Made by a program: the position numbers and the translations under genes. Below are positions 6,504 to 52,638 of a stretch of 64,000 nucleotides of DNA, piece after piece. This DNA comes from Thalassia testudinum (Eukaryota; Streptophyta; Magnoliopsida; Alismatales; Hydrocharitaceae). The notes beneath the pieces are model-generated. The model ran no database searches. It saw nothing but the letters and a program-made list of their open reading frames with translations, and was not told the DNA's origin. The number at the start of each line of letters is the position of its first letter. Position 1 is the stretch's first letter. The stretch covers positions 13,126,001 to 13,190,000 of the forward strand of contig JAZHRO010000063.1 in the NCBI GenBank assembly GCA_037157565.1. The letters are read 5' to 3'.

Positions 6504-6540
6504 TTTTGCTAGGGACTAGCAAAAGATAGGCAAGGAGGTG
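6504..6540 (+). promoter_or_regulatory. PPT hairpin plus polypurine tract (element A)
   Basis: Arms TTTTGCTAG (6504-6512) and CTAGCAAAA (6516-6524) with loop GGA form a perfect hairpin. It is followed directly by the purine tract GATAGGCAAGGAGGTG, which ends at the first base of the 3' LTR. The tract primes plus-strand DNA synthesis; the role of the hairpin is unknown to me. Confidence 0.85.
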
Positions 6541-12786: not shown

Positions 12787-13147
12787 TGTAATAAATGCCA
12801 GATTATCATCATCCTTAGCATCCATTCACATCTAGTTCCTAAAATTTTGTTAATTGCATTGCATTATATCGTTGCATTTAGCATGCATGTTTAGGGCTTA
12901 GAGCATACATTAGCATTCGTTTCACATTATCTCATGTAGTTTCCATTTGATTTCAAGGGATGAGTGCATTGGAAATCAAGGAAACCCTAGCAGTATGGAA
13001 GGCACTTGGAACATTTGTGAAGATAGAAGGTCCAGTAGTTGGACCCTAGCTCAACTCAGTTGGATCCAACACAAATCCAGCTCGTACCTTACTCCCTCTC
13101 CACCTTAATGGCCATCCACCAACAATAAAACCACCAACCACTGATGC

Positions 13148-13370
13148 CTAACCATCCTCTTTGGCACCCTTTCACATGGCACCAAGGAAGCTTCCTAACC
13201 ACCATCCAAGCCACCCTCCTTGGCACCCTTTAACATGGCACCAAGGAAGCTTCCTAAGAAACCTTTTTAGCACCCTTTCACATGGTACCAGGGAAGCCTC
13301 CTAACCACCATCCAAGCCACCCTCCTTGGCACCCTTTCACATGGAACCAAGGAAGCTTCCTAAACACCAT
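13148..13370 (+). repeat. Four-unit tandem repeat in U3 of element B
   Basis: Four imperfect units of 50-65 bases, each with GGCACCCTTT or AGCACCCTTT, then ACATGG, then CAAGGAAGCTTCCTAA or a close variant. The array ends about ten bases before the TATA box. Each unit contains the palindrome GGAAGCTTCC. Confidence 0.8.
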
Positions 13371-13378
13371 CCATACTA

Positions 13379-14206: not shown

Positions 14207-14895
14207 CTTTGTAACGACATTAAAACCCCCATTTATAGATCATGTAAAATCCAAATCACTGTGCTATAACTTCTTTCATGCAACAAAATGGCGAACAGTT
14301 TCATGAGGCCTGCGAGAAGTATAATGACATTCTCAGGAAATGTCCACACCATGGTCTGCCTAAGTGGCATGTAGCCCAGATTTACTACTATGGGCTAAAT
14401 GAAACTATGAGGCTAATTGTAGATGCTTCCTACGAAGGTAATTTCTTGCATAAAGATGAGGATGGGGCATTGTACTGTTTAAGAACATGAGTGAAAATTC
14501 TATGAAGAACGCTTTCATCGCCACCATTAATCGAACTAGCGCACCTCGTAGCAGAGCACATGAGGTTGACATGGGACCCTCCCATTCCTCCACTGACATG
14601 AACTTAATTGCACAAAAATTGGATGAAGTCTCCCCCATTCACAAGAAGCTGGACAAACTCTTGGCCAACCCCACCTAATCCGTGGCTCACACATCGACTC
14701 CATCACATAACAAACCTAATCCTTTCCAATTCAGGCATAATTCTAGGAATCCTGCACAACCTACACCATCTTTACTAAGTATTGTGTCGAGCGACATAAT
14801 AAGTAATTTAGACCTGGTTTCTGCTAGCCAGTATTTTGACATGGAGGAACAAGCCTCCATGTACTCGAACACATTACCTTATGCGGACTCATTGA
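14207..14895 (+). pseudogene. gag of element C, first piece
   Basis: Open from 14278 for 70 codons, then continuing in another frame to 14678 and beyond. It shows QFHEACEKYNDILRKCPHHGLP (split here as QFHEACEKY and CPHHGLPKW), followed by DASYEGNFLHKDEDGALY and then MSENSMKNAF. These are the gag blocks seen in H (CPLHEVPKW, DASCGGNFLNGDVDSAYDL, MSENLINHRY). It is cut at 14895 by the 5' LTR of element D. The Tyr-rich continuation (EVYALGNNLY, YNPGWCNHPNF) lies at 25690 onward. The N-terminal half of gag is missing because element B lies upstream. Confidence 0.8.
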
Positions 14896-17258
14896 TGGTA
14901 ACGCCATCATTCATCATAACTAACTTGAATTAGTCAGACTCAAGAGATAAATTCTCCCAAATGATTGCTTAAGGACCATAATCCCATCTGATCTATTTTG
15001 AGAGGATAAGAAAATAGGGTTAATTCTGCTATTTTAATAGAACATCACAAATATAGATTAATCGTGGGGTTACTTAGGGGTTTTTTGAAAGTTAAATGAT
15101 CATAAAAGATGAAGAATTGGGCTCATACTAATAGAATCAGGGTTTCACGCACATCCTAAATACCCTAATTATTTGCCACACTTGAATTGAGAGGGTTATG
15201 CTTATAATAAAATCAATATAACTTTCCTAAAATTCATGGAAAAATATTCTAAGAGGTTTGGTACCTTTGGTTTGGCCATCTGAGCCTATTTTGACCTAGA
15301 ATAGAGACTCAGAAGGGAATTTGCCCTAATTTGGGTTTCTATGCAATTTACTAAGCCAAACGTGGTCAAAACTCAAATACAAGCTCACCATTAGATTCCT
15401 TGAGTATAAATTAGGTTAACACAAAAATTTAGGCCTAATCGAAGTTCAAATACAAACTCACATTTCTAGTGCAAGCTCCTTGCAATTTTTGTGAGGAAAT
15501 TGCACTGATTTCATGTAATTTAAGGTCATAAAACACTCTATTTAAGTCCTAGCCAGTTCTTAGGTCCATTTTGAGTCTGGTTCCAGGCCAAATCTACCCC
15601 TTCCTCGTCTTCTCTGGCCACCTCTATTGCGGATTCGGCGACCCTCTTCAATCCCCTTCTTTCGACCACTTGATGGTCAAATCAAGTGGCCTAATATCTT
15701 CCTCAATGTCTTCTGCTTCTCACCGACCAACGTAGAAGCCACTTCCCCTTCGTCGTCGCCCCTCTTCATAGCTGGAGGCTTTGTCTCTTCCATGTCCTGC
15801 AAGGCATGCTGGTGTGGCATCCTATTCCCCATCATCAATTAATTAGGTCTTTCTTCATCCTCTCTTTCTAGATCAAAACTAGCCCCTTATCAACCCAATC
15901 CGACCAACATATCATGTCCTCCCCCTTCGTCTTCGCCAGCGTCGGCCACGCCTCTAGCAAGGTCACGTGGCCGCCACACACACCTAAACGACCCGCGACC
16001 ACCACCAAAAGCCTCCCCTCTTCACGTAGAACAAAAGCCCTCTCCTTATTGAAACCTCCACCCACTCAAACACTGCACCAGATGAACCTATCTTCTGCCT
16101 GCTCCGACTTCGTTCAACCACACCTGACCACAAAATACCTCACCATCACCACTGTCACACTCCTTGCATCTCGATGAGTGCTTCTGAACTGCCTAACCTC
16201 GCATCTCAACGAGTGCTTCTGAACTACCTAATTGGGGCGATAAGCCTATTCTTTATGTTTCAGGTATCGATTGCCGTTGACGCATCCACTGTCGCCAATC
16301 ATCGCTGTCCGTCGATCATCCACAGGGCCACCACTCTGTTCGAATGTGGATTATTCTCATGACATCTACTGCACTTCCTATTTGGGAAGAACACCCAGTA
16401 GCAGCTTGAATTGGAACTTTAATCCTCAACATGAGCACGAAGGAAGTAAAGGAGAAGGTGGCACCCTTTAGTGCCATATCGTATGAGTGAAACTCAGATA
16501 ACCAATTAAAGGAATTCATACAGTAGCTTAGGTACGTCGACACTGGGGTTGAGGCCCCCACTCACCTCATGCATGCACTCCTCACCCGCCTACATGCTGA
16601 TGGGTCTATTCCCTATGCCCAAGTACTCGACTATCCTATAACCAGTCCGGATTTGAGGAGAGAGAAGGAAAGAAAGATTTCTGAGGATGGAGGGGGGAGG
16701 ATTTTGCACTGTTGCTCCTTGAAATGCATGCCAACACTTAGTGAAATTTCAATGACTTGAGAGGCTGTTGTGCTTGATGAGTTAAGTCATCTGCCCATGT
16801 GCCCAACGACTAACACTGATATTTGTTGAGGTTACTGTGGAATTATTTGGCACTAATCTGAAGTGGTTAAGTGGTTTGAAATTACTATTGAAACATTGGA
16901 ACTACTATTGGTATTGGGAATTGTGCTTAATTGTAGGATTTAATTAGTGGTTCAAACCACCATTTTTAGCTTTCAATTATTCTTTTTCTCCTATTGATTT
17001 CTAAGATACAATTTGCTACTAATTGAATATCTTTTTGAGTTGATTATTTCTCCATCGTATATCTTTATTGTGTTTCATTTTTGTGCTCATTTATTTCTAA
17101 TATTTTGACTAGTGATTGAATTCCATATTTGCTCCCTATGAATGACCTCGAAACTCACAATTTTTTGAGCACTTATAAATTTAAATTTTTTTGTTACGCT
17201 TTTTTCAACTATACTACGACATAATACTTTTCTAAAACATGGTACAAACTTATCAACA
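14896..17258 (+). repeat. 5' LTR of element D
   Basis: Begins TGGTAACGCC and ends CTTATCAACA. It aligns by eye with 18309 onward along its length. A block of about 290 bases present in the 3' LTR (18880-19167) is absent here, at about 15449. A weak TATA-like CTATTTAAG lies at 15538-15546. U5 contains CAACTATACTACGACAT, also seen at the ends of other LTRs here. Confidence 0.85.
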
Positions 17259-17260
17259 CT

Positions 17261-18268: not shown

Positions 18269-18308
18269 TTTTGCTAGGGACTAGTAAAAGTTAGGCATGG
18301 TGGTATTA
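18269..18308 (+). promoter_or_regulatory. PPT hairpin plus polypurine tract (element D)
   Basis: Arms TTTTGCTAG and CTAGTAAAA around GGA, then GTTAGGCATGGTGGTATTA up to the TG of the 3' LTR. Confidence 0.8.
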
Positions 18309-20494
18309 TGGTAAAAACATTATTCGTCATAGATAACTTGAATTAGTTAGAATCAAGAGATAAATGTTCCTAAAAGATCGCCTAAGGACCATATCCCACT
18401 CTAATATGTTTTAAGAAGAGGACAAGAAAACAGGGTTAATTTTGTTGTTTTAGCAGCACATCACAAATGCAAAATAACCACAGGGTTACTTAGGAGATAA
18501 TTGAAGGTCAAATGAACATAAAAGATCAAGCGGTGGGCTTAGATTGATAGAAGCAAGGTTTCACACACTTCGAGGATCGAAATAAGACTAAAAACCCTAA
18601 TTATTAGCCACACTTGAATTAAAAGGGTTTTAGTCAGGATAAATTAATCTAAACCACATAAAATTCATGGAAAAATATTCTAAGAGGTTTAGTACCTTTT
18701 GTTTGACTATCTAAGCCTATTTTAACCTAGAATAGAGATTAAAATAAGAATTTGCACTAATTTGGGCTTTCATACAATTTTCCCAGTGAAACATGGTCTA
18801 AATTCAAATCCAAGTTCACCATTAGATTTATTGGGTATAAATTACCTTCACATCAAAATTTGGGCCCAATCAAAGTTCATCTTGACCATGTTTACATTTT
18901 AGCCCCTATAATCTTTGCCCTTCACATTTAAACCCATAGGTTTAAAGTTTCTTGCAAAAAGGCCCCTACTCTTCTCATCATGTTTGCGAATAGGTCCCTG
19001 TCACCATTTGAGGTTTGAATAGGATCAAACCCAAACCCACCGACCTTCAAACTGGAAATCTCACATAATTAACCACCAAATCACTCTAAATTTGGAGGGA
19101 TTGGTCGTCAAGAGATCCTTTATCAAATGCACAAGCCACGAGGCCTACTATGATCCCTACACCGTCAGCAAACTTGCTTTTTCAATGTAAGTTCCTTGCA
19201 ATTTTCGCAAGGAATTTGTATTGATTTCATGCAAATTAAGGTCCTAGAACCCACTATTTAAGTCTTAGGTAGTTCCTAGGTCCATTTTGGACCCAGTTCT
19301 AGGCCAAATCCACCTCTTCTTCGTCTTCTCCTGCCACCTCCACCGTGACTCTAGTGAACCTCTTCAATCCCCTTCCTCCGGCTACTTGACGGTAAAATGT
19401 AGTGGCCTAATATCTTCCTCAACCTCCTTCGCTTCTTGCCAACCAACATAGAAGCCACTTTCCCCTTCATCGTCGCTCCTCTTTATTGCCGGAGGCTTCG
19501 TCTATTCCACATCTGACAAGGCACGCCGGTGTGGGATCCTCTTCCTCTTCGTCCATTAATTAGGTCTTTCTTCACCCTCTCTCTCTAGAATAAAACTAGC
19601 CCCTTATCACCTCAATTCGACCAACGTATCATGTCCTCCCCCTCTGTCTTCCCCAGCATCAGCCATGCCTTCAGCGAGGTCGAGCAGTCGTCACACACCC
19701 CTAAACAACCTGCGACCACCACCAAAAGCCTCCCCTCTTCATGTAGACCAAAAGCCTTCTCCTTGTTGACACCTCCACCCACTTAAACACCCCACCAATA
19801 GAACCTATCTTCCACCTGCTCCTCCAACTTCGTACGACCACACTCGACCATGAAACACCTCGCCATCACCACCATCACACTCCTTACATCACGACGGTGC
19901 ATCTGAACTGCCTAATTGGGGTGATAAGCCCATTCTTTGTGTTTCAGGTATTGGCTGCTATCGACACATGCATTGTTGCCAAACACCGCTGTTTGTCGAT
20001 CATCCACAGGGCCACCACTCTCTTCAAACACTGAATCATCTCACGACATCTACTGTACTTCCAATTTGGGAAGAACACCCAATAGTAGCTTGAATTGGAA
20101 CTCCAATCCTTAGCACGCGTGCAAAGGAAGCAAAGGAGGATATGGCACCCTTCAGTGCCATATCATATGCATAAAACTCAGATAATTAATAAAAGGAATG
20201 AAAGATTTTTGAGGATTTGAGGAGAGAGAAGGAAAGAAAGTTTTTTGAGGATGGAGGGGAGAGGTTTTTGCACTGTTCTCCATGAAATAAGTGACAACAT
20301 TTTGTGAAATTTAAAAGACTTGTGGGGATACTATGCTCGATGAGTTAAGTCGTTTGCCCCACGTACCTGATGTCTGACTCTAATATTAGTTGGGGTTACT
20401 GTGGAATTATTTAGCTCTAATCTGACGTGGTTAATTGATTTTGAATTACTATTGAAACATTGAAACTAATGTTGGTATTGGGAATTGTGCTTAA
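18309..20494 (+). repeat. 3' LTR of element D, first piece
   Basis: Begins TGGTAAAAAC. It matches 14896 onward and breaks off after GTGCTTAA, where element E begins; the 5' LTR continues there with TTGTAGGATT. It includes the block 18880-19167 that is missing from the 5' LTR. Confidence 0.85.
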
Positions 20495-22292
20495 TGTTCG
20501 ATGAGTAAATCATGTTTGAAAAGATTATTCAGTTGTAGTATAGCACGAAAACATGTCAACAAATAATATTTATAAATTCCAGTGAGTACTAGGTCATTTG
20601 CAGGGAGGCAATCTCGATTTTAACAAAAGCTTTTCAATAAAACTAGTTCTAATAGGTATTTATATATGTATATATGTATAAAGAGGCAACAAATATTCAT
20701 GAGATCAAATTTCATTACAATGATAAAGAGTTTTTCACAGTCAAAATTGCTATGCTAAATAGAAACAGATAGATAGAGAGTTAGAGAAAGAGATATAGAA
20801 GGTGACAGAGAGACGATGCCACTTGTAGGATGCTTGTGCAAGATGCGGCAACACCTCAAATCTAGAGCGTCGGGTTGAAGGTCGGAGCAAAGATGTAGAG
20901 GGAGAGTTTTGGTCTGGAGGAAGGTAGAAGAGTTGTACCTAGAGATGCCTTCAACTAGGGGGCTTTGGCCTTCTTTTATAGCTTTTATGGAGGGCAAAAA
21001 GGGTTTTTAACCCTTAAATTGTGCAACCGTAGGACAATCAAATCTGTCGATTGGAAGATCAACAAATCAGATTTGGCCTCAAAATAGCCTCCAACGTGCC
21101 CTCTATGCTCAGGTGCATTTTGGTGGCGACACATGCTGCACTCTGGGGCCTTGGATCAAGATCTCACGCTCCAGCTGCTCCTGCACCCCTGCTTCAACGG
21201 TTCTCTCTCTACGCGTGCTCCTGCAAGCCTCATTCGAGTGCTTTATCCTCGGTCGTTTGATCTTACGATCAGACGACCCAGATTCGCTTTCCTCGCATGC
21301 TCAATTTCCCCTCTTCACACTCGCCTACGCGAATTCGAATCGCGTCCAGCGATCTCAGCCATCCGATCTCAGCCGTCCGATCTGACGATCATACCGCTTA
21401 CGTGCTTGCATGCCTCGCCTTCATTTTGTAAAACACATGGGATCCCATGATCAACCGCAGTGCACTCTGATCATGCGACATGGTCGCATCTCTGCCCTTC
21501 GATTGCCATCTGATGGTGAAATTACACCCGTGCCGATGCCTTCCTAATTTCCTGCGTAGCACCACTCGAATGTGCATCTTGCAATTGCGGTTGAGCGTGC
21601 TCACTACTATGCTAAGCATCCAAATTGTTATGTTTTTGTTTCAAGGAAACTTATTCTCATCCGTTGGATGAAGATCCAACTATCAGGATTTTCTTTCCTT
21701 TGATGAAGCGTGGCTAGATGGGCGATGTGGCATGCTCTTGGCCACTGGATGAAGATCCAATGGCCCACAGCGTGTGAGGGCGGCCTTCCTAGATGGGGAG
21801 GTGGTGAGGGGGCATCTGTGATGGTGCCACATGGCACCATCATAGCCGTCCATCTTCTTTTCCTTGTATCTGGTGATGTACAGCTCCAATCAGGTTGCAT
21901 TTTGAGCCATTGGACTACGATCGTTGATTTGGATCCATCCATGTGGTTGGATTTTTCATCTGAGGCTTGGATATTTATCCTCTGGCTCCATGGTCTCTAT
22001 TCTTCTATGGACTACACAAGATGCCTTGGTTGTTTGATCGAGATGATTTCGAAAGCATTGGACTCCCGACGTCATTCTGATCGGATCTATCCAGTCTAAT
22101 CTGACATCTACGGCTTCAAATCATCTACAATTAAAATCATCACTCATTAGTACATAAAATGACGATATTATCTATATGACTAATAAACTAGCTATTGTGC
22201 AAATTACGAAGCCTATGAATGCATTATTCCTAAGTTATGCTAGAATCTAGCTTAATTCAAGTGATTTAGGTTGCATGATTGCTGTGCAATCA
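20495..22292 (-). repeat. 3' LTR of element E
   Basis: 1798 bp. On the minus strand it starts TGATTGCACAGC and ends CATCGAACA. U3 has a perfect dyad with arms GATGGTGCC/GGCACCATC (21820-21841) and two dyads of the TTGGAT type (21661-21681, 21742-21763). A TATA box reading CTATAAAAG on the minus strand lies at 20973-20981. The LTR start resembles that of element C (TGATTGCACAAT at 54999), so E and C may be related. Confidence 0.82.
21820..21841. promoter_or_regulatory. U3 dyad, GATGGTGCC/GGCACCATC type (element E)
   Basis: Perfect nine-base arms around ACAT-type centre. The same 22-base dyad stands in U3 of A (1046-1067, 6994-7015), F (26511-26532, 31093-31114) and H (44020-44041, 54048-54069) with changes. 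Confidence 0.7.
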
Positions 22293-22329
22293 CACCCCCA
22301 TGACTAAATCTTGCTAGTCCTTAGCAAAT
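22293..22329 (-). promoter_or_regulatory. PPT hairpin plus polypurine tract (element E)
   Basis: On the minus strand, TTTGCTAA and CTAGCAA arms around GGA, then ATGGGGGTG directly before the LTR. Confidence 0.78.
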
Positions 22330-24040
22330 GCAAGACTAAATGCAAAATGGTCCTATATGACTAATTTTTATCAAGACTTTGACCAGAGGTTTATGTCTTT
22401 TGTTTTCATCCGAAGCTTTAGTAATCCAGATAATCGTTATTATGTTTTGTTGTAGCCTATGCAACGGATCCACGTGAAAAATCAATCCACATCTAAAGCT
22501 CATACTTGACCCTTAGTAAAAATCTATTGGGATAGGCAAACTTCTTCCGTTGGGGTTATAAGGTAATCTGAAATTCAACCTTGGTTTTTGGCTTAGGTAG
22601 AAGATTTCTGAGTCAAGTAGATTTGTATTTGGTAGCTCATACTCATCTAGTGCTACATAAAGATTTGTACTTCAGAACCTAGATTTCTAGATTATTAAAT
22701 AATTCAACTCAAAGAGAGGCAGAGAAACTGTGCTCTCTTCAGTGCCTTTGTCTCATTCTCTCTCTTTCTTTCTCTTTCTCTTTCTTTTTCTTTATCTTAT
22801 CTTATCTTTTCTTTTCTTTTCTTTTGAGCTCACAATCTCACCAAAATTGCCAGTATATTTGGTGGTCTCTCCTGGCATTAACACTTTGATTAGGTTCTGA
22901 TAACTCTAAGATTAAGTCAGAATTCCTTAACCTGTATTCAGGAGGCTAGAAATATTGAAAAGTAGGTCAAGGCTATATTTCGTGGATCATGAGGGTGGTA
23001 GGTGTTGTTGCCTCATTACACTTAAAATAAACTCAAACTCATAAACTCATTTTTTTCTTCTCTTTTCTTTTTCCAAATTTTTCTCTATGTATATATATTT
23101 CTTTTCTTTTCTTTTCTTTTTCCTCTATTTTCTTTATATATATATATATCTTTTTTTTTCAAATATCTACTAATGCAACGTAATATAGCAAACGAATTTT
23201 AATTTACGAGGCATTATTCAGGATTAAGGGTGTTCAAGAGAATATTGGGTGACTTATTTGGTGGAAGTGCCTATTCTCAGCACTGGGAAGGGAATGGATA
23301 GGATAGCGTATTTCCGACCTTGACATTAATACCCTCCTTTAGCCTAGGATTCCGTAAAAGATGATCGTGGCCATCCACCTTAGTCCTAGTCTTATCAGAA
23401 CCCGCTCGCTACGTATTTGCCTTATTTGGTGGCTCTCGAAATATTCGCACTAATAACTTGTACACAGAAATCGAGAGCAAAAACTTACGCCTAACTCTGA
23501 GTATCATTATCTCATTATCCAGAGTTTAAGATTCCTCATACTAGCCTTAGAGTACCAGTAGACTTTCTACTCTCACCTCACATTTGTTTAGTGGATCTGT
23601 TAGAAGATTGTTTGCCTGACTCCCTAATTACTGTCCAAGGGCTTAGGAGAAGCATTTCTTCTTCTCAACAAACTAAAGATGTTTATGGGTCTTCATAGAG
23701 GATCCATTACAAATTCTACTTGTAAGTGTGAACTTGTACTAGATTCTAAACTCAGGAATCAACTTAAGAATAAATCCTTAATAAAACCATAATAAAAATT
23801 CTTTATGCCTAAATGCTTTTTTTTTTACATAAAGATAAGACATGCAATGTCCATTCCCCCATGCCTATTCATTACAATGTCCTCATTAAAATGTATGAAT
23901 GAAAATCAAAATATAATAAGCAAGAGGAGGGGATATCACCTGACTATTCTTGTTAATCCAAGTTAGTATGGATGCAGAGCTACCTATACAGAGTACTGGG
24001 TTGCCTCCCAGCAGGCGCTAAGTTTAACGTCATTTGCCAG
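22330..24040 (-). other. 3' untranslated region of element E
   Basis: Non-coding. It has two long pyrimidine tracts (22737-22826 and 23038-23155; purine on the element's sense strand), with a short TA run at 23138-23148. An internal purine tract (23852-23868, CCCCCATGCC on the plus strand) follows an ACAATGTCCTCAT block. The paired stem-loops of A, F and H are not recognisable. Confidence 0.6.
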
Positions 24041-25358
24041 ACTTAGTTCAACTTTAAGAAGATTCAAGAAGGTTGATGTGACCATCGAGAATGGGATCAT
24101 AGTTCCGCGTGATATAAGGCTTCAATCTCTTACCATTCACCTTTGTCGCATGGCCAGTCTTAGAATCTAGGATAAGAACAGCTCCATGAGGGTAGACTTT
24201 TCTTACAATGAAGAGACCTACCTACTTTGATCTTAATTTTCCTAGAAAGAGCTTCAAGCATGCATTAAATAACCAAACCTTTTGATTAGGGACAAAGATT
24301 TTTCTAGAGATGTATTTATCATGTAAAGCTTTTGTCCTATTCTTATAGATTCTCATGCTCTCATAAGCATCATTCTGGATTTCATCTAATTCAGTTAATT
24401 GGAGTTTTCTTTGTCATCCAGATCGATCGAGATCCAAGTTAAATGTTTTGATTTCCCAATAAGCTTTATGTTCAAGCTAAATGGGCAGATGGCAAGATTT
24501 TTCGTAGACCAGACGAAATGGAGACATTCCAATTGTAGTTTTATATGCAGTCCAGTAGGCCCAGAGAGCGTCATCTAAATTGGTAGACCAATCCTTCCGA
24601 TCCGAGCGGACTGTCTTTTGAAGGATCTTTTTAATTTCTCAATTGGTGATTTCAGCTTGTCCGTTGGTCTGTGGATGGTATGGAGTAGAGATTCTATGAC
24701 TCCACACTTGGCTAGTAAGGTCTTGAATTGGTTGTGAGTGAAATGGGACCCGCCATCACTAATTAGGGCTTTGGGTACATCGAACCGACTAAAGATTTTC
24801 TTCTTTACAAAATCCATGACCACTTTATGATCATTGGTTCGGGTAGGGATGGCCTCAATCCATTTGGATACATAATCAACTACCACCAGAATGTACAAGT
24901 ATCCAAATGAATTGGTAAAATGTCCCATAAAATCAATGGCCCAAACATCAAAGATTTCAACTTCAAGGACTAGATTTAGGGGCATCATGTCCTTCCTGGT
25001 CATGTTTCCTAGAGTTTGGCAATTGATACATGACTTACAGAAGTTATACGAGTCATGGAATAAAGACAACCAATACAATCCACTCTGTAGTACCTTGGCT
25101 ACCCTCCTTTTTCCTGAGAAGTGACCTCCACAAGCAAAAGTGTGGCAAAATTCTAGTACACTTATGATCTCCTCATTTTGAATACAACAGCGGATAACCT
25201 TATCCGCGCAAACTTTGAATAGCTCTGGGTCTTCCCAAAAGTAGTATTTGGCATTGGAAATCAACCTATATCTCGTGTGCTTAGTCCAATCCATGGATAG
25301 TTTTCCGATGGCCAAATAGTTGACAATATCTACAAATCAAGGTAGTTTCCAAATCAAG
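24041..25358 (-). pseudogene. Integrase of element E (broken)
   Basis: Integrase inserts the DNA copy into the host genome. The frame at 24575-25315 (minus) starts in the RNase H/IN linker (YYFWEDPELFKVC), has the zinc-binding HHCC region (CHTFACGGHFSG, CINCQTLGNM) and then the catalytic core: VWAIDFMGHFTNSFG with the first Asp, and ISDGGSHFTHNQF with the second. The third acidic residue falls in a frameshifted region near 24640 ([12 protein letters not shown] replaces the expected sequence). Beyond 24575 the C-terminal part continues in another frame down to the pol-end phrase GGGAGGCAACCC near 24001. It is adjacent to the 3' region of the same element. Confidence 0.85.
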
Positions 25359-25687
25359 AATTGTGGGATTTATTAGTGGTTCAAACCACCATTTTTAGAT
25401 TTCAATTATTCTTTTTGTCCTATTGATTTCTGAGATACAATTTGCTACTAATTGAATATCTTTTTGAGTAGATTATTTCTTCATCATTTATCTTTATTGT
25501 GTTTGATTACTGTGCTCATTTATTCCTTATATTTTGACTAGTGATTGAATTCCATATTTGCACCTTAAGAATGACCTCAGAACTCATGGTTTTTCGAGCA
25601 CTTATAAATTTAAATGTTGTCGTTATGCCTTTATCGACTATACTGCAACGCAATACTTTTCTAAAACATGGTAGAAGCTTATCAACA
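25359..25687 (+). repeat. 3' LTR of element D, second piece
   Basis: Resumes with AATTGTGGGATTTATTAGTGG, the continuation expected from 16925 in the 5' LTR, and ends CTTATCAACA at 25687. Confidence 0.85.
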
Positions 25688-26205
25688 CCCATCTTCAGAA
25701 TTAAAAGAAGTGTATGCCCTGGGGAACAATCTGTATTCTACTACTTACAACCCTGGGTGGTGCAACCATCCAAACTTTGCATGGTCCAACAACCCTCAAC
25801 TCCAAAACCCCACTGGTAGACCAGTGCGACAGTCAGCTCCCAGCATCCTAAGGGCCCAATATTGTCCACCAGTAAATCCACTGCCAAGCCCTTGCGAACC
25901 TCAAATTGATCACACATCAAACCCTCTTGATAAGTTGATACGAATGATGACGAAAATGTCAAAGCTCCATGAAGAGAACATGATTTGCCTTCAACACCAA
26001 TTATCGTAGCAAAATGCTTAGATCAGTCAGCTATGCATGATGACTTGATCTTAGGGCACTCTTCTCACTCAACCTATCCCAAACCTGCAAAAATTCTTAC
26101 CTCGTGGTCCACAACCTCAGGTGCAACCTTCTCAGGGGTAGGTTCACTAGGTTTTGCATCCTTCAAGTACTCCATCGGGATTTTAGGCTAATCCCACACC
26201 AACAC
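25688..26205 (+). pseudogene. gag of element C, second piece
   Basis: The Tyr/Asn/Pro-rich part of Athila gag: SELKEVYALGNNLYST, YNPGWCNHPNFAW, then PLDKLIRMMTKMSKL, a helical segment of the type that precedes the gag C-terminus. The frame is open to 26009 and then broken. It continues gag from 14895 and, across element F, resumes at 32273. The last bases, AACAC (26201-26205), are the left target duplication of F. Confidence 0.75.
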
Positions 26206-27683
26206 TAATAAACACGCATGTATTCATGATGAAATTCCCACTTATGATAGTCCGTAAGCTTAGCATTGCATTACATAGTATAAATACTACATAACATTCA
26301 TCATATTGCATTTAGTGCAATATGTATAAATTGTACAGTAATTCAAGCATTATTGTGGCTAGGGAATAGGGTGCAACATTTTGAAGCTTCGAATGTAAAA
26401 TCTGATCGTACAGATGAATTCAGAGCGACAGTCGCTGTCTAGTGACGTGAAAATCATCTCGATCCAAGCACTGTATCATCCTCTGCAAGCAAGGAAAGGT
26501 GGAAGGTACAGATGGTGCCATGTAGCACCATCCATATCACCCAAGGTTTCCTAGCATCCCAGCATGCGATCTCAATCGTTGGATGAAAATCCAACGGCTG
26601 AGAAGCCTCCTCCACTACATGCCCATAGCATTTCTTCTCAACACATGCGCTAGCATGTCACATTGGTTGAGTCGTTCACTGCCAAATGAGGGGTGCGAGT
26701 TAGTGACCAACAAATCCCCCCCCAATTTATCAATTGGCCCCAAGGCAATGGCAGTGCATCGTGCATGCAAAGGCTAACCACCCGCCAGCATAGCACAGTG
26801 GCAGCAGTAGTGCAACGCACAACCAGCGCATGTGGGCACGACATGGCAATGCATAGCATGTGTTGACAGTGTTGCGTGGATCTTCAATGATAACTAGGGC
26901 AGATCTATAGCGATAATTGTGAATGTCACTAATTGTCCATGCACGGAAAGCTCCTTCTCCACCACTATATAAACCCACCTACACCTCCCCGTTTGCCATC
27001 ATCTCTACCTATGCTACTCCCACCTACTCCAAAGCTCCAAGAAGCCTACTAAGCTCCCAAGAGCTCTATTCCCAATTTCCAAAGGCTCCCTATTAGTGTA
27101 GAGTCCCATCCATCCACCAAATATTCAACCATCCTCTCACCACCTTCATAGGGAACCCTAGGGCCATCCCCTCACCTCCATTCAGGTAGACGATCACCTC
27201 CACCTCCTCATCCCCATTCCCAACTTCGTGAAGCTTTCCTCTACCTAGGTTTGTCTTGCACCTCATCCCCGATGTCCATCATCTCTCCTCCTCAATCCAA
27301 GCTGCCGCCAAAGCGTTGTCATCTCGCCAAACATCTACTTTGGGAGATTTCCTCTCACCCTCATCTCTTTCAGTTTGTTTAGCTTATTGTTACTGTAATA
27401 AACATTATTTTGCTTCAAGCAATCAAATTGTGGTTCATCTCTCTATTCTTTTTATTGCAAGTGATTTTACCATTCTCCTAAAATACCAAAAAAATAACAC
27501 AACCGTAAAATATCAAAAAAAAAAAATTGAAATGCGGATTTCAAGAAACAAATGTAGCCTTCCCATGTTCGACCTGAGATTCCCTTTCGAGTGTCGATAA
27601 ATTTTTTTCGATAGCAAGTTTTGCTACTACGATGATGGGGTTCCTCAAAACCTTGCCTTTTCCATGTGAAAACCCACTAATCA
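26206..27683 (+). repeat. 5' LTR of element F
   Basis: 1478 bp, starting TAATAAACACGC (TG has become TA) and ending CCACTAATCA. U3 dyads at 26511-26532 and 26576-26598; TATA box CACTATATAAACCC at 26964-26977. By eye the first 150 bases differ from the 3' LTR at roughly one base in ten, so the insertion is not recent. Confidence 0.9.
26964..26977 (+). promoter_or_regulatory. TATA box, 5' LTR of element F
   Basis: CACTATATAAACCC, the same in the 3' LTR near 31555. Confidence 0.8.
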
Positions 27684-27686
27684 TTT

Positions 27687-27693
27687 TGGCACC
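27687..27693 (+). promoter_or_regulatory. Truncated primer-binding site of element F
   Basis: TGGCACC, three bases after the 5' LTR. This is the first part of the tRNA-Asp site; the rest (ATTGCCGGGGA in element A) is replaced by the tRNA copy. Confidence 0.7.
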
Positions 27694-27768
27694 AATGTTG
27701 TAGTATAGTGGTGAGTATTCCCGCCTATCATGTAGGCGACCCGAGTTCGGTTCCCAGCAACGATGCCA
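27694..27768 (+). tRNA. tRNA-Asp-like sequence with encoded CCA, non-functional retro-copy
   Basis: Seventy-five bases, exactly the length of plant tRNA-Asp plus CCA. The D-arm region TAGTATAGTGGTGAGTATTC, the anticodon stem-loop with CCCGCC, the T-arm with GAGTTCGGTTC and the acceptor end CAACGATGCCA are all in order. Compared with the usual plant tRNA-Asp(GTC) the differences are mostly C to T or G to A, including anticodon GTC to ATC, a mismatched anticodon stem and acceptor stem, and an altered B box. CCA is present in the DNA, which nuclear plant tRNA genes lack. On the minus strand its 3' end is the primer site of the inverted LTR fragment (27781 onward). I therefore read it as a reverse-transcribed primer tRNA and not as a working gene. 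Confidence 0.85.
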
Positions 27769-27780
27769 AAACAGTCAGCA

Positions 27781-28380
27781 TGATTTCGTATGCAAAAAGA
27801 TTTGAGTTAGAAAACCTGTTGTCACAGTGCGTAGAAATCGCTACCAAATAAAATTTATATCGAAACTTGAAGTGGGTCCTGGGTAGAACACAGGGAGGCA
27901 AATATTTTGGTTGAAATTTGCACTTAGATTTTATTCATTTTTTTGAATTTTTATACGGCAGGGGATCAGGTTGAAATAATTTTTATCTAATCTATTTACA
28001 AAGAGAGAGAGAGAGAAACAATCACACATATGTCTAAACAAGTATTTGCTACAGATAAGAAAGCAGAAAACTACACTACAAAAGCGATAACGATAGAGAA
28101 AGGTGAGAGGAGTCCCCCTCGACAGTCGCTTGGAGGATGGCTCGCTCTGGCGTCGCTTGGAAGAAGGTGGTAGAAAGCTAGAGGAAGGAGAATGGTAGCG
28201 GAGTAAAGAGGACGGGGTTGGATGGTGTTGCGGCGAGGATCTTCATCTGAAAGGTGGTGAGGGGATGGCCATGGGATGCTCCACGAATAGGGGTGAGAAG
28301 TGGTAACAAATATTGGTTTCTACTCTATAGGAGCATCCCGAGCTTGGGACAAAGCTGTCTGTAAAGCCATGGAGGTGGTG
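27781..28380 (-). repeat. Inverted LTR fragment inside element F
   Basis: On the minus strand this reads as the R-U5 end of an Athila LTR: an A-rich block, GCCTCCCTGTGTTCTACCC, then a TAGCGATTTCTACG region and the end CGAAATCA at 27781. Twelve bases later comes TGGCATCGTTGCTGGGAA, its tRNA-Asp primer site, which is part of the tRNA copy. It resembles the U5 of F in layout but differs in sequence, so it comes from a related element. The right edge joins integrase sequence near 28380; its U3 is missing. A GA microsatellite lies at 28002-28016. Confidence 0.75.
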
Positions 28381-29425
28381 AGGGAGAGAAAGATAGTGTC
28401 AAAAATTATGAAATCTGGATTCTATTGGTTGTCATTTTTTAAGGATGCCTAGGAATTCTCAAGGTCGTGCACCCAATCTAGACACTCAGGAACATGGCCA
28501 AGAGAGACATGATGCCCCTAAACTCGATAATTCTCGTCAAAATTTTTGACATTTGGGGTATCGATTTTATGGGTCCCTTTCCTTCTTCATTTGGACACGA
28601 GTATATTCCAGTTGCTGTGGATTACATGTCCAAATGGATTGAGGCAATTTCCACCTAGACCAATGACCACAAGGTTGTCATCGATTTTGTGAATAAAAAT
28701 ATCTTCAGTCGGTTCGGGATTCCTCGGTCCATTCTCAGTGATGGTAGCACGTATTTCACTCATGCCCAGTTCAGGAATATACTGGAAAAATACAGGGTGA
28801 ATCATCAGATTTCCATACCTTACCACCCTTAGACCAATGGACAGGCCAAGGTCTCTAATCGAGTGATTAAGAACATTTTATAGAAAACGGTTAGGCCTAA
28901 TAGGAAGGATTGAACCCAAAAGCTGGATGATGCTCTTTGGGCTTACCAGACAGTGTACAAAATGCCTATCGGTAGTGTTTGGTAAGGCATGTCACTTACC
29001 CGTAGAATTAGAACACCGGGCATTTTGGGCCACTAAGAAATGCAATCTTGACCCAGCGTTAGCTGGGAAGACTAGGAAACTCCAACTATCTGAGTTGGAG
29101 GAGCTTAGAAATGATGCCTATGAGAATGCTAGAATCTATATGGCAAGGACCAAGGCTCTTCATGACCAGATGATTTCTTGTAAGAGCTTTGAGTCAAATT
29201 AGAGGTCTGGCTTTTTGATTCTCGACCTAAGCTCCTCCTCGGCAAGCTTAGGCCTAAGTGGAATGACCCATTCATTATTGAGCAGATTTTTCCTAATGAG
29301 GCCATCAAAATATCTGACCCAAAGATGGGTAATTCCTTCAAGGTCAACGGGCAACGTCTCAAACCCTTTGTTGACGATGTGCTCCCTGAACTCGTTTTGG
29401 ACAAGGTTGCTCTCACCTTGCCCTA
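28381..29425 (+). pseudogene. Integrase of element F (broken)
   Basis: Starts in the zinc-binding region (SGFYW, then FKDA) and covers the core: [15 protein letters not shown] with the first Asp at about 28560, ILSDGSTYFTHAQF with the second at about 28740, and NGQAKVSNRVIKN, where the catalytic Glu is expected but Val is read (VSNRVIK in place of SNREIK). It then continues to PVELEHRAFWATKKCN and LQLSELEELRNDAYENARIYM. Several stops and frame changes, for example near 28654 and 28975. Everything upstream of integrase (gag, PR, RT, RNase H) is missing. Followed by the 3' region. Confidence 0.85.
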
Positions 29426-29583
29426 ACCTCTGTTGGCTGGACATCACCTAGCTGAAGGCATTGAACTCAACACGTGTATAGACTATTTTGGAGTTGACCG
29501 GAGTTTCACATAATTTAGGTGATATTCTTCCTATTCTGCCCTCCTATATGCTTTTATTTTACAATGGGGACATTACATTAGCT

Positions 29584-29600
29584 AGGCATGGGGGGGTGGA
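29584..29600 (+). promoter_or_regulatory. Internal polypurine tract (element F)
   Basis: AGGCATGGGGGGGTGGA, preceded by GGGGACATTACATTAG, just after the end of integrase. Confidence 0.6.
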
Positions 29601-29985
29601 TACTTTTTGATGTAATCATTTTGTCAGCCTATACCAGTAATATCCTATTATTTATAAAATAAAAAACCAGAATTAAGAGAAGAAAACATAGGCATTAGGA
29701 GTTGCGAACTTTATGAAATGATACTTTAGGACCTGAACACGAAAACTCTTCAGGTCTTTGGGCTTAATCAGCCTGGGTGTCCACTCGAATGTGGACTTAG
29801 TCTCGAATCCTCTTCAAGTAATTTTATTCTAACTTGGTTAATAAATTAGGTGATAAGTGCACGACTTATCAACTAGCCCTCAGATTTGTGGGGACTATAA
29901 GTCTAAGCATCTATACATAATTTACACTGACTCATTTTTGAGCGATTTTTATGAAAATTGGGTAGCTAATGAACTTTCTAGGGTG

Positions 29986-30048
29986 GTATGGCTGGCAAGT
30001 TGTCGATAGTAATAGCTCATCGGTCGATTTTCTAGAGCCCAGCCATAC
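29986..30048 (+). other. Stem-loop 1 of 3' region (element F)
   Basis: Arms GTATGGCTGG (29986-29995) and CCAGCCATAC (30039-30048) pair over ten bases without a mismatch. Inside is GTCGATAGTAATAGCTCATC, which can form a smaller stem through CGAT/ATCG. Confidence 0.7.
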
Positions 30049-30169
30049 GACCATTCTCTTTTTGCTGCCTTTAGGTAAATCCTAGATCAAGGAAGCCACC
30101 TACTTAAAAAAAAAAAGAAAGAGAAAAAATACAAGAATAAAAAAAAATAAGCCACACTTCACCGCACAA

Positions 30170-30230
30170 GTACGGCTGGCAAGTGGTCGATGGTAACAGC
30201 TCATCAACTGATTTTCCAGACCCTAGCTCA
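30170..30230 (+). other. Stem-loop 2 of 3' region (element F)
   Basis: Repeats the core of stem-loop 1 (GGCTGGCAAG, GTCGATGGTAACAGCTCATC). The outer arm on the right, CCTAGCTCA, pairs less well. Confidence 0.5.
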
Positions 30231-30750
30231 CAAAACATACACAAATAATTCACAAATACTTAAGGAAGAAGTGGGAAGTAGAATAAATTGGGGAGATATA
30301 AACTGGGTTTGCCCTTGTGTTGACCCCATAAAAGTAAAAAGTAGGGAGAAAGTTACCGGTCGGATAGATACACCTTTAGGTAGAATGTCTTTTAAGGTCA
30401 CCTAGGGGTGTACAAACCTAAGGTCCGTTTTAATTTCCATTGAGTGAGCCTATCATAACTATCACAACAAAATGCTTAGCACTTAGAGTCCTTTTCGAGT
30501 CTTGTGCAGGTCGGATAGCCGTAAAAAGTTATCCTGAAACTCTCAACTCCAAAAATTCTAAAAAATTAAAAATGAAAAAAAAAATAAAAAAATGTATCTT
30601 CCCTTCTCAAAATAAGGTGAGGACTTCGGCGGTTTGCATTTTGGCAGATACCCGAGCATTGTTGCTTACTGAAATTTTCTAAAGTGATCAACAAATCTTG
30701 CCTAAGTGATCAAATGTTGATTCTATTCTTATACATAACATTTTGGTTAA

Positions 30751-30787
30751 TTTTGCTAGGGATTAGCAAAAGATATGCATGGGGATA
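30751..30787 (+). promoter_or_regulatory. PPT hairpin plus polypurine tract (element F)
   Basis: Arms TTTTGCTAG and TTAGCAAAA (one G-U if transcribed) around GGA, then GATATGCATGGGGATA ending at the LTR. Confidence 0.83.
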
Positions 30788-32272
30788 TGATAAACATGCA
30801 TGTATTCATGATAAAATGCTTACTTATGATAGTCTCTAAGCTTAGCATTGCATTAGATAGTATAAATACTGCATAACATTCATCATATTGCATTTAGTGT
30901 GATGTGTATAAATTGTACAGTAATTCATGCATTGTTGTGGCCAAAGAACAAGGCGCAACATTTCAAAGCTACAAATGGAAAATTCAACTATATGGATGAA
31001 TTTGGAATGACAATCGCAGTCCGACAACATGAAAATCATCTTGATCTGAGCACTGTGGCTTCCTTTGCATGCAAAGAAAGGTGGACCATTCAGATGGTGC
31101 CACATGGCACCATTTAGATCGCCCAAGGTCACCCGACATCCCTCCAAAGGCCTTCCAACATGCGATCTCAACCATTGGATGAAAATCCAATGGCTGAGAG
31201 GCTTCCTTCACCGCATGCCCATAGCATTTCTTCTCGACACATGCTCTAGCATGGCACATTGGTTGAGGCACTCACTCTCAAAAGAGGGCCATGGGTTTGA
31301 GACCCATGGACCCCCCAATTCTTCAATTAGCCATGAGGCAGCAACAGCGCAACACACTGCGCATGCGAAGCACGCACTAGTGCAGCACAGTGGCAGTAGT
31401 AGCGCAACGAACAGCTGGTGCACGTGCGCATGACAAGGCAGTGCATAGTGCACCCTAGCATCATCGTGGAGATCTTTAGTGACAGCTAGGGTGGATCTTT
31501 AGCATTGATTGGGGATGTCACTAATTGTCCAGGTGCAGAAAGCTCCTTCACTACCACTATATAAACCCTCCTACACCTCCCCATTTGTCATCATCTTTAC
31601 CTATGCTACTCCCACCTACTCCAAAGCTCCAAGAAGCCTACCAAGCTCCCAAGAGCTCTATTCCCAAGCTCTAAAGGCTCTATATTAGTGTAGAGCCCTA
31701 TCCCTCCACCAAATATTCAACCATCATCTCACAACCTTCATAGGGAACCCTAGAGCAGTCCCCTCACCTCCATTCTGGTAGACGATCACCTCCACCTCCT
31801 CATCCCCATTCCCAACTTCGTGAAGCTTTCCTCTACCCAGGTTTGTCCTGTGCCTTAGCCCTGACGCCCAACATCTCTCCTCATTCCGAGCTGCTGCCAA
31901 AGCATCGTCGTCTCGCCAAACATCTGCTTTGGGAGATTTCCTCTCACCCTCATCTCTTTTAGTTTGTTTAGATTATTGTTATTGTAATAAACATTATTTC
32001 TCTTCAAGCAATCAAATTGTGGTTCATCTCTCTATTCTTTTTATTGCAAGTGATTTTACAGTTCTTCTAAAATACCAAAAATCAATAAAACCTAAAAGCT
32101 CTAAAAGGAAACAAATTGAAATGCAGATTTCAAGAAACAAACATCACCTCCCTGTGTTCGACTTAGGAATCCCTTTCGAGTTTCAATAAATTCAATTTGA
32201 TAGTGACTTTTGTGACTACAATGACGGGGTTTCTCAAAACCCTAATTTTTCTACGTGAAAACCCGTTAATCA
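30788..32272 (+). repeat. 3' LTR of element F
   Basis: 1485 bp, TGATAAACATGC to CCGTTAATCA. TATA box CACTATATAAACCC at about 31555-31568. U3 dyads at 31093-31114 and 31172-31193. The second has arms with CATTGGAT/ATCCAATG where the 5' LTR has CGTTGGAT/ATCCAACG, that is, both arms changed together. Confidence 0.9.
31172..31193. promoter_or_regulatory. U3 dyad, TTGGAT/ATCCAA type (element F)
   Basis: Arms CCATTGGAT and ATCCAATGG around GAAA. In the 5' LTR (26576-26598) the arms are CGTTGGAT and ATCCAACG. Related dyads lie in A, E and H. Confidence 0.7.
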
Positions 32273-32738
32273 AGCACATCAACCCTACAACCCTATTGTG
32301 AACCCTCCTCCACCATACGATCCCATTGGACCTATGACATTCAATGCGATTACTACGAGGAGTGGAAAACAAACCGTCAATCTACCCCAACCTAATGCTG
32401 GCCCATCTTCTACGTCATCCTCTCGTTCTAACTGTGCACTGCATTCTCATGCGGACGACATAGCCAAACTAGTGCCAGAATCGCTACCATTCCCTGAGGC
32501 TCTACTAAGGGAGACAAAAGGCAACAAGAAGAACACACAGACCTTTGATAATCTGCGTAATTTATTCAAGGATGTTGAAATCAAGATTCCCTTGCTGGAG
32601 TCGGTCGACCATATCATGACTGTCACCTATTTCTTTAAGGACTACACTATCCCTAAACAACAACAAAAGAAAACCAACCTGGTGGTTCTCTTGCCTCATG
32701 GGAGTTGTGCTATACTATCAAAATTACCACCGAAGTAG
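32273..32738 (+). pseudogene. gag C-terminus of element C, third piece
   Basis: Open frame from 32298 to 32738. It starts with AITTRSGKQTVNLPQ-like sequence (typical AITxRSGK of Athila gag), has LPFPEALL and FDNLRNLFKDVEIKIPLLES, and ends with KLPPK before a stop. H has the same blocks (IPFPEALLKAK, LFQSVAINIPLLDAI). It lies directly after F's right target duplication and before protease. Confidence 0.82.
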
Positions 32739-42557: not shown

Positions 42558-44343
42558 TGATCGCATGGGTTTCGTGTGTTTGAAATCGAGATTAAGAATT
42601 ACCTGTCATCGTAGTTGCAAAACTCATAATCAAATATAATTTATACCAAAACTCTAAGGGAGTCTCGGGTCGAACACAGGGAGGCAACATTTACTTTATA
42701 TGAAAAACATGCTTCAATTTATTTCCTTTCGGTGCTTTGTGGTTTCTTTTTTTTTGTTTTTGAAATAAAATGACAAGCAATTACAAGCGAGAGATGGAAT
42801 CAAATATGATATATTTCATGAATGTCAATATAATAAAATATGAAAGCGTAAAAGAGAAAAGGGGTGAGAAGAAATCTCCTGAAGCGACTATTCGGTGAGA
42901 TGACGACCCTTGGCGGAAGCTCGGATGAAGGAGTTGGGAAGTAGGACGATGGAGGTGAGAAGCGAGAAGACATTGGGTAGAGGAAAGCTTCAGTGTGGCT
43001 CCGGAATGGAGGTGAGAAGTTGGAATGGAGGAAAGAATGCGGAGATGATCTGCTACCAGAGTGGAGGTGGGAGGACGGCTCCAAGGTGACCTATGAATGG
43101 GGGTGGGAAGATGGAGTAATATTTGGTGAGGCAGAGGTACGCTACACTAATAGGAGCCTTAGAAGCTTGAGAATAAGCTCTAACGGAGCGTTGGTAGGCT
43201 TGCTAGAGCTTAGGAGTAGGTGGGAGTAGAGTAGGTAGAGATGGTTTGGTAAGGAGGGTGTGTAGGCCTTTATATAGTGGATTAGAAGAGCATCCCATGC
43301 ACAGGCATTCAACAACAGCCACAAGTGTCACTAAACGCCACTCAAGCTGTATCCAAAAGATCAGTGCCTCTTCATTGCCTTGGCTAGCACACGCACTGCG
43401 CAGGGCATTTAGTGATAGCTGCAAGTGTCACTAAAGGCCTGCTCTTCTGTCATTGCAAATCTCATGTCCACTGGTCACGCCTACAGCTTTCATCGTGCAT
43501 GCTAGCGAGGATGAATCCTGACCGTCGGATGAAGGATTGCACGATCGAGGGAAGATCTAGCCACTTCGCGAGATTTGAACTGCACACTTAGATCTCACGC
43601 TCGATCTGCGTCAGATCGGGTGTCAACCGGCATGTGATCGTTCGCGTGTAGATCCTCCCACTACCGCTACATCGCATGGTGAGATCTGTGTCGCTCGATG
43701 AAGATCGAGCGGCCCAATTTGGTGCTCACTCTCACACTGTTGATTGCACATGCCTGCGGGGATTCGACTGTGCATTCGTGGCTTGAGAGTGCCTGTTGCA
43801 ACCACTACACCATGGCATTCGATTGTCGAGAAAAGGGAGTGGTGTAGTCATGCATCTCAATCTTTGGATGAAGATCCAACGGCCGAGATGAGGCCATCCT
43901 TGAGCTGGGTAAGGAGTTCAGCCATGGAGCGCACATCTCAGCCATTGGATTGCGATCAAACGGCTAAGATCTCATCTTGAGGTGGGCTTGGAACACCTAT
44001 GCTCAGGTGGGGTGGCCTAGATGCTGCCACGTGGTGCCATCTAGGTCGTCTGACTTATTCTTGCGGAGGGTGCTACAGAGCTCTGATTGGGGTGATTCTA
44101 GCATTGATGGACTATGATCGTCGCATTGAATCCATCCATACGGTTGGATTCTTCATCTGAAGCCCATAAAGATGTCACACTGCTTCCTGGCCATGTAAAA
44201 TGACAGAATTAATGTACATAATATACAATTATCCTAAATGCAATGAAATGGATGTTTATGCAATATTTATATCGTGATATGCAATGCTAGGCCTAAGAAC
44301 TATCATAAATAAGCATTTTACGATGAATTTATATGTGTTTACA
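42558..44343 (-). repeat. 3' LTR of element H
   Basis: 1786 bp, on the minus strand TGTAAACACATA to CCATGCGATCA. TATA box CACTATATAAAGG on the minus strand (43267-43279). U3 dyads at 44020-44041, 43861-43882 and 43942-43962. About 55 bases near 43015-43070 are extra relative to the 5' LTR. Confidence 0.92.
43267..43279 (-). promoter_or_regulatory. TATA box, 3' LTR of element H
   Basis: CACTATATAAAGG on the minus strand. The 5' LTR copy has TATATGAAGG. Confidence 0.8.
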
Positions 44344-44380
44344 TAACTCGAAGCTTACTTTTTGCTAGTCCATAACAAAA
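44344..44380 (-). promoter_or_regulatory. PPT hairpin plus polypurine tract (element H)
   Basis: On the minus strand, arms TTTTGTTAT and CTAGCAAAA around GGA, followed by a decayed tract AAGTAAGCTTCGAGTTA next to the LTR. The tract has lost its run of G. Confidence 0.7.
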
Positions 44381-44909
44381 TTAATCAAACTGCTATGTAT
44401 AAAAGTAGAGTCAGGATTTGATTACTTAGGCAAAATTCGTTGATTGCTTTAGAAAATCTCAACCCCAAGACCTAATTACAAAAACTCAATAGTGCCGAGT
44501 GTCTACCAGAATGCAGACCATCCAAGCCCTCACCTTATTTGAAAAGGGAAGATATAATTTTTTTATTTTTTTCTTCTTTTCTTTTTTTTTTTGGACTTTT
44601 TGGTGTTTGAGATTGTCAGGATAAGTTTTTACGGCTACCTAACTCGCCCAAGACTCGAAAAGGACTCTAAGTGCTAAGCATCTTATGAAAATCGTGAAAG
44701 ACTCACTAGGCGATCGTTGAAACGAACTTCAGGTTTCTACGGTCTTAAATGACCTTGCCTAAAGGTTTATCTTTATGATTTGCAGCTTTCTCCCTACTTC
44801 TTTTATTTATGGGGTCAACACAAGGGCGAACCCATTGTATATCTCCCCGATTTATTCTACTTCCCCACTTCTTCCCTAAATGTTTTGGGAATTATTATGC
44901 ATTTTAGTG

Positions 44910-44968
44910 AGCTAGGCTCTAGACAACTAGCCAATGGGCTGTTACGCATAGCAACTTGCCAGCCCTAC
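44910..44968 (-). other. Stem-loop 2 of 3' region (element H)
   Basis: Minus-strand core GGGCTGGCAAGTTGC and, at the other arm, CCTAGCTC, as in F stem-loop 2. Confidence 0.5.
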
Positions 44969-45120
44969 TCATGCGATGAAGTGTGGTTTTGTACATTTTT
45001 TTATTTTCTCCTTTTTCTATTTCTTTTTCTTTTTTTTTCCTTTTTCTCTCTTTTTTTTTTAAGTAGGTGGCTTCTCTGATCTAAGATTTACATTAAAGCA
45101 TTACGACAAAAATGGTCTTG

Positions 45121-45178
45121 TGGCTAGGCTGTGGACAACTGGCCGATGAGCTGTTACCGCCGACAACTTGCCAGCCAT
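45121..45178 (-). other. Stem-loop 1 of 3' region (element H)
   Basis: Arms TGGCTGG and CCTAGCCA pair with one bulged base; loop core GTCGGCGGTAACAGCTCATC. Confidence 0.55.
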
Positions 45179-45738
45179 ACCACCTTAGATAGTTCATTAG
45201 CTACCCAATTTACAAGAAAACTGCCGAAAAGTGAGTCAGAGCAAAAAATGTGTAGATGCTCAGACTTAAAATACCCTCAAATCCGAGGGCAGGGTGATAA
45301 GTCGCATACTTATCATCCCAAATTTTTTACCGATTTAAGATAAGATTATTTGGCGAGGACTCAAGACTAAGTCCACATTCGAGTGGACACCTAGGCTAAT
45401 TAAGCTTGACGACCTGAAGAGTTTAAGTATTCAGGTCCCAAAGTATCAATTCCTAATGTTTGCAACTCCTAATGCCTAAGTTCTCGTCTCCTAATTCTCT
45501 TTCTTTTTTAAGAAGAAAAATAGCAAATTACTATTACGGCTGACAAAAAGATTCATAAGAAATATCTACCCCCCATGTTTAGCTAATGCAATGTCCTCAT
45601 TGTCAAAAATGAAAGCATGAAGGAGAGTAGAAGTGGAAGAATAGCACCTGATTTTTGTGAGATTTTGGTTAGCTTGGAATAGCCTTTACACATGCTGAGT
45701 TTAGTGCCTTCAGCTAGGCGATGATCAGCTCGCAGTGA

Positions 45739-52634: not shown

Positions 52635-52638
52635 AAAT

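Follow-up and report, generated by a model that had tools for sequence, protein, structure and literature searches.

How did a copy of tRNA-Asp and an inverted piece of another element's LTR come to lie between the primer site and the integrase of a plant LTR retrotransposon? The question is raised by an element, here called F, in a window of 64,000 nucleotides of Thalassia testudinum DNA (the whole stretch that was analysed), which holds nested LTR retrotransposons. F looks like an old element that carries, just inside its left end, a tRNA copy and a strong-stop piece of a relative. Its parts, together with two related elements (A and G) used for comparison, are as follows.

594 to 8242: element A, with an LTR pair 84.8% alike and a primer site, TGGCACCATTGCCGGGGA, at 2308-2325
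26206 to 32272, plus strand: element F, delimited by an LTR pair of its own and by a target duplication around it
26201 to 26205: left copy of the target duplication, AACAC, read from the sequence
26206 to 27683, plus strand: 5′ LTR of F (blastn pair; profile match at 26207-27683, model positions 2-2021, this LTR being one of the six from which the profile was built)
27684 to 27693, plus strand: TTT spacer and the initial 7 bases of the F primer site (TGGCACC)
27694 to 27768, plus strand: degenerate tRNA-Asp copy including the 3′ CCA, nucleotides 1-2 insecure (ARAGORN, Rfam RF00005 and comparison with plant tRNA-Asp)
27751 to 27768, minus strand: 18 bases in place of the second element's primer site, TGGCATCGTTGCTGGGAA (0 mismatches to a degenerate pattern that was written to include them)
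27769 to 27771, minus strand: TTT spacer of the second element, from alignment with F and A (alternatively a 12-base spacer, 27769-27780)
27772 to 28382, minus strand: inverted U5-R segment, without U3, from the LTR of a second, related element (six-LTR profile; inner end at 27772 or at 27781, outer end known to about 10-20 bases)
28383 to 30787, plus strand: rest of the F internal region, beginning inside the N-terminal part of integrase (aligned to element G)
30788 to 32272, plus strand: 3′ LTR of F (blastn pair; six-LTR profile)
32273 to 32277: right copy of the target duplication, AGCAC, differing from the left copy at 1 of 5 bases
42558 to 54369, minus strand: element G, whose LTRs are homologous to the inverted LTR piece

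The two LTRs of F are 81.2% alike (26208-27683 against 30790-32272, blastn), with a K2P distance of 0.214 over 1471 sites. The 5′ LTR ends at 27683 and is followed by TTT and TGGCACC, as the initial annotation had stated, and the same ten bases are found in element A at 2305-2314. The integrase core of F is recognized by Pfam (rve, PF00665, within 28659-28832, E = 5.1e-8) in a scan of 5 of the 37 listed reading-frame pieces of its internal region, one of them trimmed. Element G encodes gag (PF03732) and RNase H (PF17917 and PF17919) between primer site and integrase. When aligned to G, F is evidently missing everything from gag to RNase H, a point absent from the initial annotation, and the interval between its 5′ LTR and integrase contains only the primer-site remnant, the tRNA copy and the LTR piece. 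The Pfam scan of A and G covered 8 of 17 listed reading-frame pieces; A, with three listed pieces, gave no match in the longest two and may be non-autonomous. Its primer site fits tRNA-Asp at 16 of 18 bases, and G has a primer-site-like match with 3 mismatches at 52617, directly after an LTR. As for classification, F has the two LTRs and the flanking 5-bp duplication (four of five bases) of a Ty3/gypsy element, and the order of RNase H upstream of integrase is seen in G only, F having no RNase H. F may thus belong to Ty3/gypsy, in the Athila/Tat (OTA) superclade, the clade name being tentative. The primers of non-chromoviruses include tRNA-Asp, according to passages of PMC6317226.

Several other repeats were observed in the window. 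A long repeat is present in two copies (14895-17259 and 18308-25688), the second of which is interrupted at about 20496-25358 by a minus-strand element, as judged from the matches on its two sides, which adjoin each other at 16929-16931 of the first copy. The interrupting element (20496-22200 and 24221-25157) has integrase-like sequence and a recognizable U3; a self-comparison of the window found no second LTR for it, and it may be truncated. At 13147-13373 a sequence is duplicated in tandem, the period being about 106 bases.

The next step is to establish what lies at 27694-27768. ARAGORN calls a tRNA-Asp with anticodon ATC on the plus strand at exactly these positions, and in a 261-base search Rfam RF00005 matches 27694-27765, up to the CCA, along its full model (positions 1-71 of 71) with E = 0.0031, the 25 bits falling short of the gathering score of 29. 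A search of the whole window with the same model at the gathering threshold gave no match. The check by tRNA models that the initial annotation had proposed thus came out in its favor, if at a sub-threshold score. Compared without gaps to a plant tRNA-Asp(GTC) reference plus CCA, 60 of the 75 bases are identical, and all but one of the 15 differences are transitions. It had been claimed that the 75 bases equal tRNA-Asp; the match over the whole length stands, but "equal" was too strong. The local alignment scores 96; none of 1000 letter shuffles exceeded 30, and nothing elsewhere in the window exceeded 31 (segments overlapping 27650-27800 left out); here and in the primer-site and LTR-profile comparisons, the shuffles keep letter composition only. 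Within the primer site, 4 of 18 bases deviate from the reference tRNA, and F's own primer site, reduced to 7 bases, matches it at 6. Nucleotides 1 and 2 of the tRNA read AA instead of GT; the length nevertheless fits a start at nucleotide 1. The enzyme would accordingly have reached the 5′ end of the tRNA or stopped within two or three bases of it, a slightly weaker statement than the original one of copying to the very end.

The resemblance extends well beyond a primer site. Past the 18 primer-site nucleotides, 46 of 57 are identical to the reference tRNA-Asp, and the 57 bases that follow three other primer-site-like matches in the window are identical at 13, 19 and 17 positions, the third match (59331, 3 mismatches) perhaps not being a real site. 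A family with a naturally long primer site was rejected, as these three matches have no downstream tRNA sequence; a pattern scan of viral contigs for an extended primer site gave no match. The third match, 59331-59348, lies just after a repeat (58760-59307) that recurs near 14992, 18428 and 55500 and, inverted, near 62228.

The K2P distance between the tRNA copy and the reference tRNA is 0.251, whereas half the LTR distance of F is 0.214/2. The copy has thus changed roughly twice as much as would be expected from F's LTRs, an excess that calls for CpG decay, errors in copying or another variant of the tRNA, and it therefore bears no mark of late arrival. In mature tRNA, A58 is methylated. The corresponding base, 27750, reads G, which could be a misreading by reverse transcriptase or ordinary decay; as proof of misreading it was rejected, being one of 15 changes.

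Downstream of the tRNA, the CCA runs straight into TTT and then into LTR-like sequence, that is, in primer register with a U5. Read on the minus strand, this segment is homologous to the F, A and G LTRs in their 3′ portion. A profile built from six LTRs, all from these three elements, matches the minus strand from 28382 to 27793 over model positions 1306-1998 of 2021 (87.4 bits, E = 1.4e-27), and 100 letter shuffles gave a single match, at −7.6 bits. The alignment is loose, with a mean accuracy of 0.65 and a bias term of 30.2 bits. The proposal that the inverted piece would align with LTRs is thereby borne out. The initial annotation had further described two LTRs joined head to head through the tRNA copy; the order and the opposite orientation are as it said, but the second LTR is only a piece, in which the six-LTR profile found no U3, although the same profile detects the distant U3 of the minus-strand element mentioned above (22170-21554, 157 bits). 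Since the piece agrees with the 5′ LTR of F at only 61% identity over the aligned part, its donor is not F but a second element, hereafter E2.

Where the piece begins and ends is of consequence. At its inner end, the alignment reveals a GAAA shared by F and the LTR piece, followed in both by 12 bases before TTT. This alignment with F and A favors a TTT spacer and an end at 27772, which reads TG rather than the usual CA. The initial annotation had placed the end at 27781, after a 12-base spacer; this position does read CA, and the profile match stops at 27793. On balance the alignment makes 27772 the more likely end. As for the outer end, the model position of the TATA box is about 1242 for F and G and about 1275 for A (columns hand-counted and approximate), so that the piece starts between 31 (by A's TATA) and 64 (by F's and G's) positions downstream of it. 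The expected transcript start lies some 32 bases beyond a TATA box. The piece is therefore taken to be R plus U5, probably to within some 30 bases. The E2 transcript start would be placed by analogy with relatives whose TATA-to-block distances themselves vary, from 74 to 97 bases (G5, where the block matched at a non-homologous place, left out).

Read on the plus strand, the insert thus has the order tRNA-CCA, complement of U5, complement of R. Because the piece goes no further than about the R start and contains no recognizable U3, the insert appears to extend just as far as a minus-strand strong-stop DNA would. The idea of the initial annotation, a junction with the strong-stop DNA of a related element, is sharpened by this to a minus-strand tRNA-U5′-R′ molecule that ends near the R start. 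We identify the insert with strong-stop DNA since its two limits lie at or close to those that such a molecule naturally has, namely the 5′ end of the tRNA and the R start. That both should do so by chance seems unlikely, and we give no formal probability for it.

The junctions are informative about how the insert was joined to F. The left join lies inside F's primer site: from TTT through GTTGTAG there are 20 bases, as seven primer-site bases abutting tRNA nucleotide 1 require. A jump through CGTTG pairing, as originally suggested, predicts 17 bases over the same interval and was dropped. The second jump instead looks end to end, with an overlap of at most two bases, GT; even this overlap is presumed, both bases now reading A. 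At the right join, the homologies to F and to the LTR piece meet or overlap at about 28380-28390 with no extra bases, and F sequence is recognizable again, by alignment to G, from about 28381-28390 in the N-terminal part of integrase. A purine-rich stretch at this join, GGGAGAGAAAGA, can be assigned to F or to the LTR piece; a short shared sequence is likely here, inseparable from E2's own.

Taken together, we propose, with a probability of roughly 0.72, that the insert, from 27694 to about 28382, represents E2 minus-strand strong-stop DNA still covalently joined to its primer tRNA-Asp, copied into DNA through displaced template switches, with normal integration thereafter. E2 would have been a related element co-packaged with F. 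Synthesis of the F minus strand would have proceeded from the 3′ LTR as far as integrase; the strand would then have come off the F RNA and paired, through a short match, with the 3′ end of the E2 strong-stop DNA. Equivalently, the 3′ end of the E2 strong-stop DNA could have primed on the F minus strand at the integrase point. The enzyme would then have copied R, U5 and the whole tRNA of E2, proceeding beyond the modified A at which copying usually stops. After running off at the tRNA 5′ end, synthesis would have continued on the plus-strand strong-stop DNA of F, which comprises its LTR and primer site, re-entering at about primer-site base 7-9 with an overlap of at most two bases, and the left LTR of F would have been completed. 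Finally, integrase would have inserted the linear product with its intact F ends. We infer each of these steps, as well as the co-packaging and the identity of the strand that jumped, from the anatomy of the locus. The left join falls at the single place where a primer tRNA belongs, the primer site of F, and this favors the strong-stop origin. Counting against it are the loose LTR alignment, the variable TATA spacing of the relatives by which the E2 transcript start is placed, the TG at the inner end, the mismatched tRNA nucleotides 1 and 2, the four deviating primer-site bases, the excess divergence of the tRNA copy, and the need to pass A58.

The same inserted molecule could have arrived by a different route, and this is the chief rival. 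F would have integrated normally, and a later double-strand break between primer site and integrase would have been repaired by end joining, capturing tRNA-primed strong-stop DNA of E2 as filler and losing gag to RNase H. Retrotransposon cDNA intermediates are inserted at breaks in yeast (passages of PMC10802722), and the molecule inserted would be identical to that of the preferred explanation. Nevertheless, the left break would have had to fall by chance in the initial 7-9 primer-site bases, beside the matching tRNA 5′ end, out of several kilobases by a rough estimate, and a late capture would leave a tRNA copy less diverged than the age of F predicts, which is not observed. We therefore prefer a single cycle of reverse transcription, in view of the position of the left join in F's primer site and the divergence of the tRNA copy, and consider break repair unlikely. 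Less probable still is that the F family as a whole inherited the structure from a single early event, the recombinant product having since multiplied by transposition. F, lacking gag to RNase H, would presumably be mobile only with help, and the three other primer-site-like matches in the window lack the tRNA structure; the origin of the event itself would in any case stay the same.

Two further explanations carry less weight again. The degenerate tRNA match, which is under the Rfam gathering score, could suggest a tRNA pseudogene or a tRNA-derived SINE that came by chance or nested insertion to neighbor an unrelated inverted LTR fragment. A reading of 27684-27790 together with the alignment reveals neither the body nor the tail of a SINE ahead of the LTR, however, and the CCA meets TTT and the U5 end in primer register; on this last ground, both the pseudogene and the SINE were set aside as very improbable. 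An assembly error joining two elements deserves the least credence of all, as a misjoin would hardly be expected to place a decayed tRNA with 15 changes in primer register between two LTRs while leaving the LTR pair of F and its flanking duplication in place.

The preferred reading, a strong-stop DNA taken up during reverse transcription, can be compared with known systems. In HIV plus-strand synthesis, a methylated base blocks copying at the 18th tRNA nucleotide (passages of PMC11241228). Copied tRNAs adjoining retroviral LTRs have nevertheless been described, as summarized in parts of PMC12220202. According to these parts, Colicelli and Goff (1986) found a tRNA-Gly, 4 bases short at its 5′ end, between the LTRs of a circular Moloney MLV DNA. 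The case resembles F in that the tRNA was thought to be a primer, was copied nearly to its 5′ end and was kept beside an LTR. It concerns a spurious tRNA in a circle, whereas in F the type of tRNA fits the primer sites of the elements, an inverted U5-R from another element comes after the CCA, and the entire structure has been integrated. The same source includes the finding of Gurgo and Franchini (2025) of a tRNA-Gly lacking five 5′ bases beside an HIV provirus. There, too, a tRNA copy with CCA abuts viral DNA in a chromosome, but the tRNA is non-cognate and outside the provirus, while that of F lies inside, between primer site and integrase. Finally, in the hairpin-induced tRNA-mediated recombination of HIV-1 (Konstantinova et al. 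2006, also as cited in PMC12220202), 63 nucleotides of tRNA-Asp or 65 of tRNA-Glu were gained; tRNA was likewise taken into retroviral sequence by recombination, here at an experimental hairpin in nef, and the portion of PMC12220202 describing it mentions no strong-stop DNA or inverted LTR.

Fusion of elements by template switching is known in grasses, where Sabot and Schulman (2007) attributed fusion LTR elements to it (passages of PMC1950507). In these complex elements, two elements are fused in one reverse-transcription cycle, and the outer LTRs are alike and flanked by a 5-bp duplication. Both features, the similar outer LTRs and a duplication around the whole, are present in F and, following those authors' criteria as given in these passages, lead us to attribute the insert to a single integration together with F. 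The grass elements have an internal LTR between two complete cores; F, by contrast, has a third LTR that is incomplete and inverted, with a tRNA as the link, and most of its core is missing. F is therefore not filed as a template-switch complex element, even though it would appear to work like one. The words "tRNA" and "inverted" do not occur in the main text of PMC1950507. Among the matches listed from the open-licence literature, no title or abstract opening reported an integrated element that carries the inverted strong-stop DNA of another element together with its primer, and for this reason we see the captured strong-stop DNA and primer as a new variation on the known copied tRNAs.

In its fullest form, the proposal is that the locus is a fossil of a complete tRNA-primed minus-strand strong-stop intermediate, inverted within a different, co-packaged element, with a cognate tRNA copied end to end through A58 by a plant reverse transcriptase and both obligatory strand transfers displaced in one cycle. 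We would give this whole combination even odds. If it is true, further fossils could be found by their tRNA-U5′-R′ ends, a pattern sharp enough for searching plant assemblies. The strong-stop intermediate with its primer is usually studied in particles or in vitro. Captured genomic copies, if they exist, would record which tRNA primed synthesis, where the transcript started and which elements shared a particle, and also that the reverse transcriptase passed a modified A that normally stops it.
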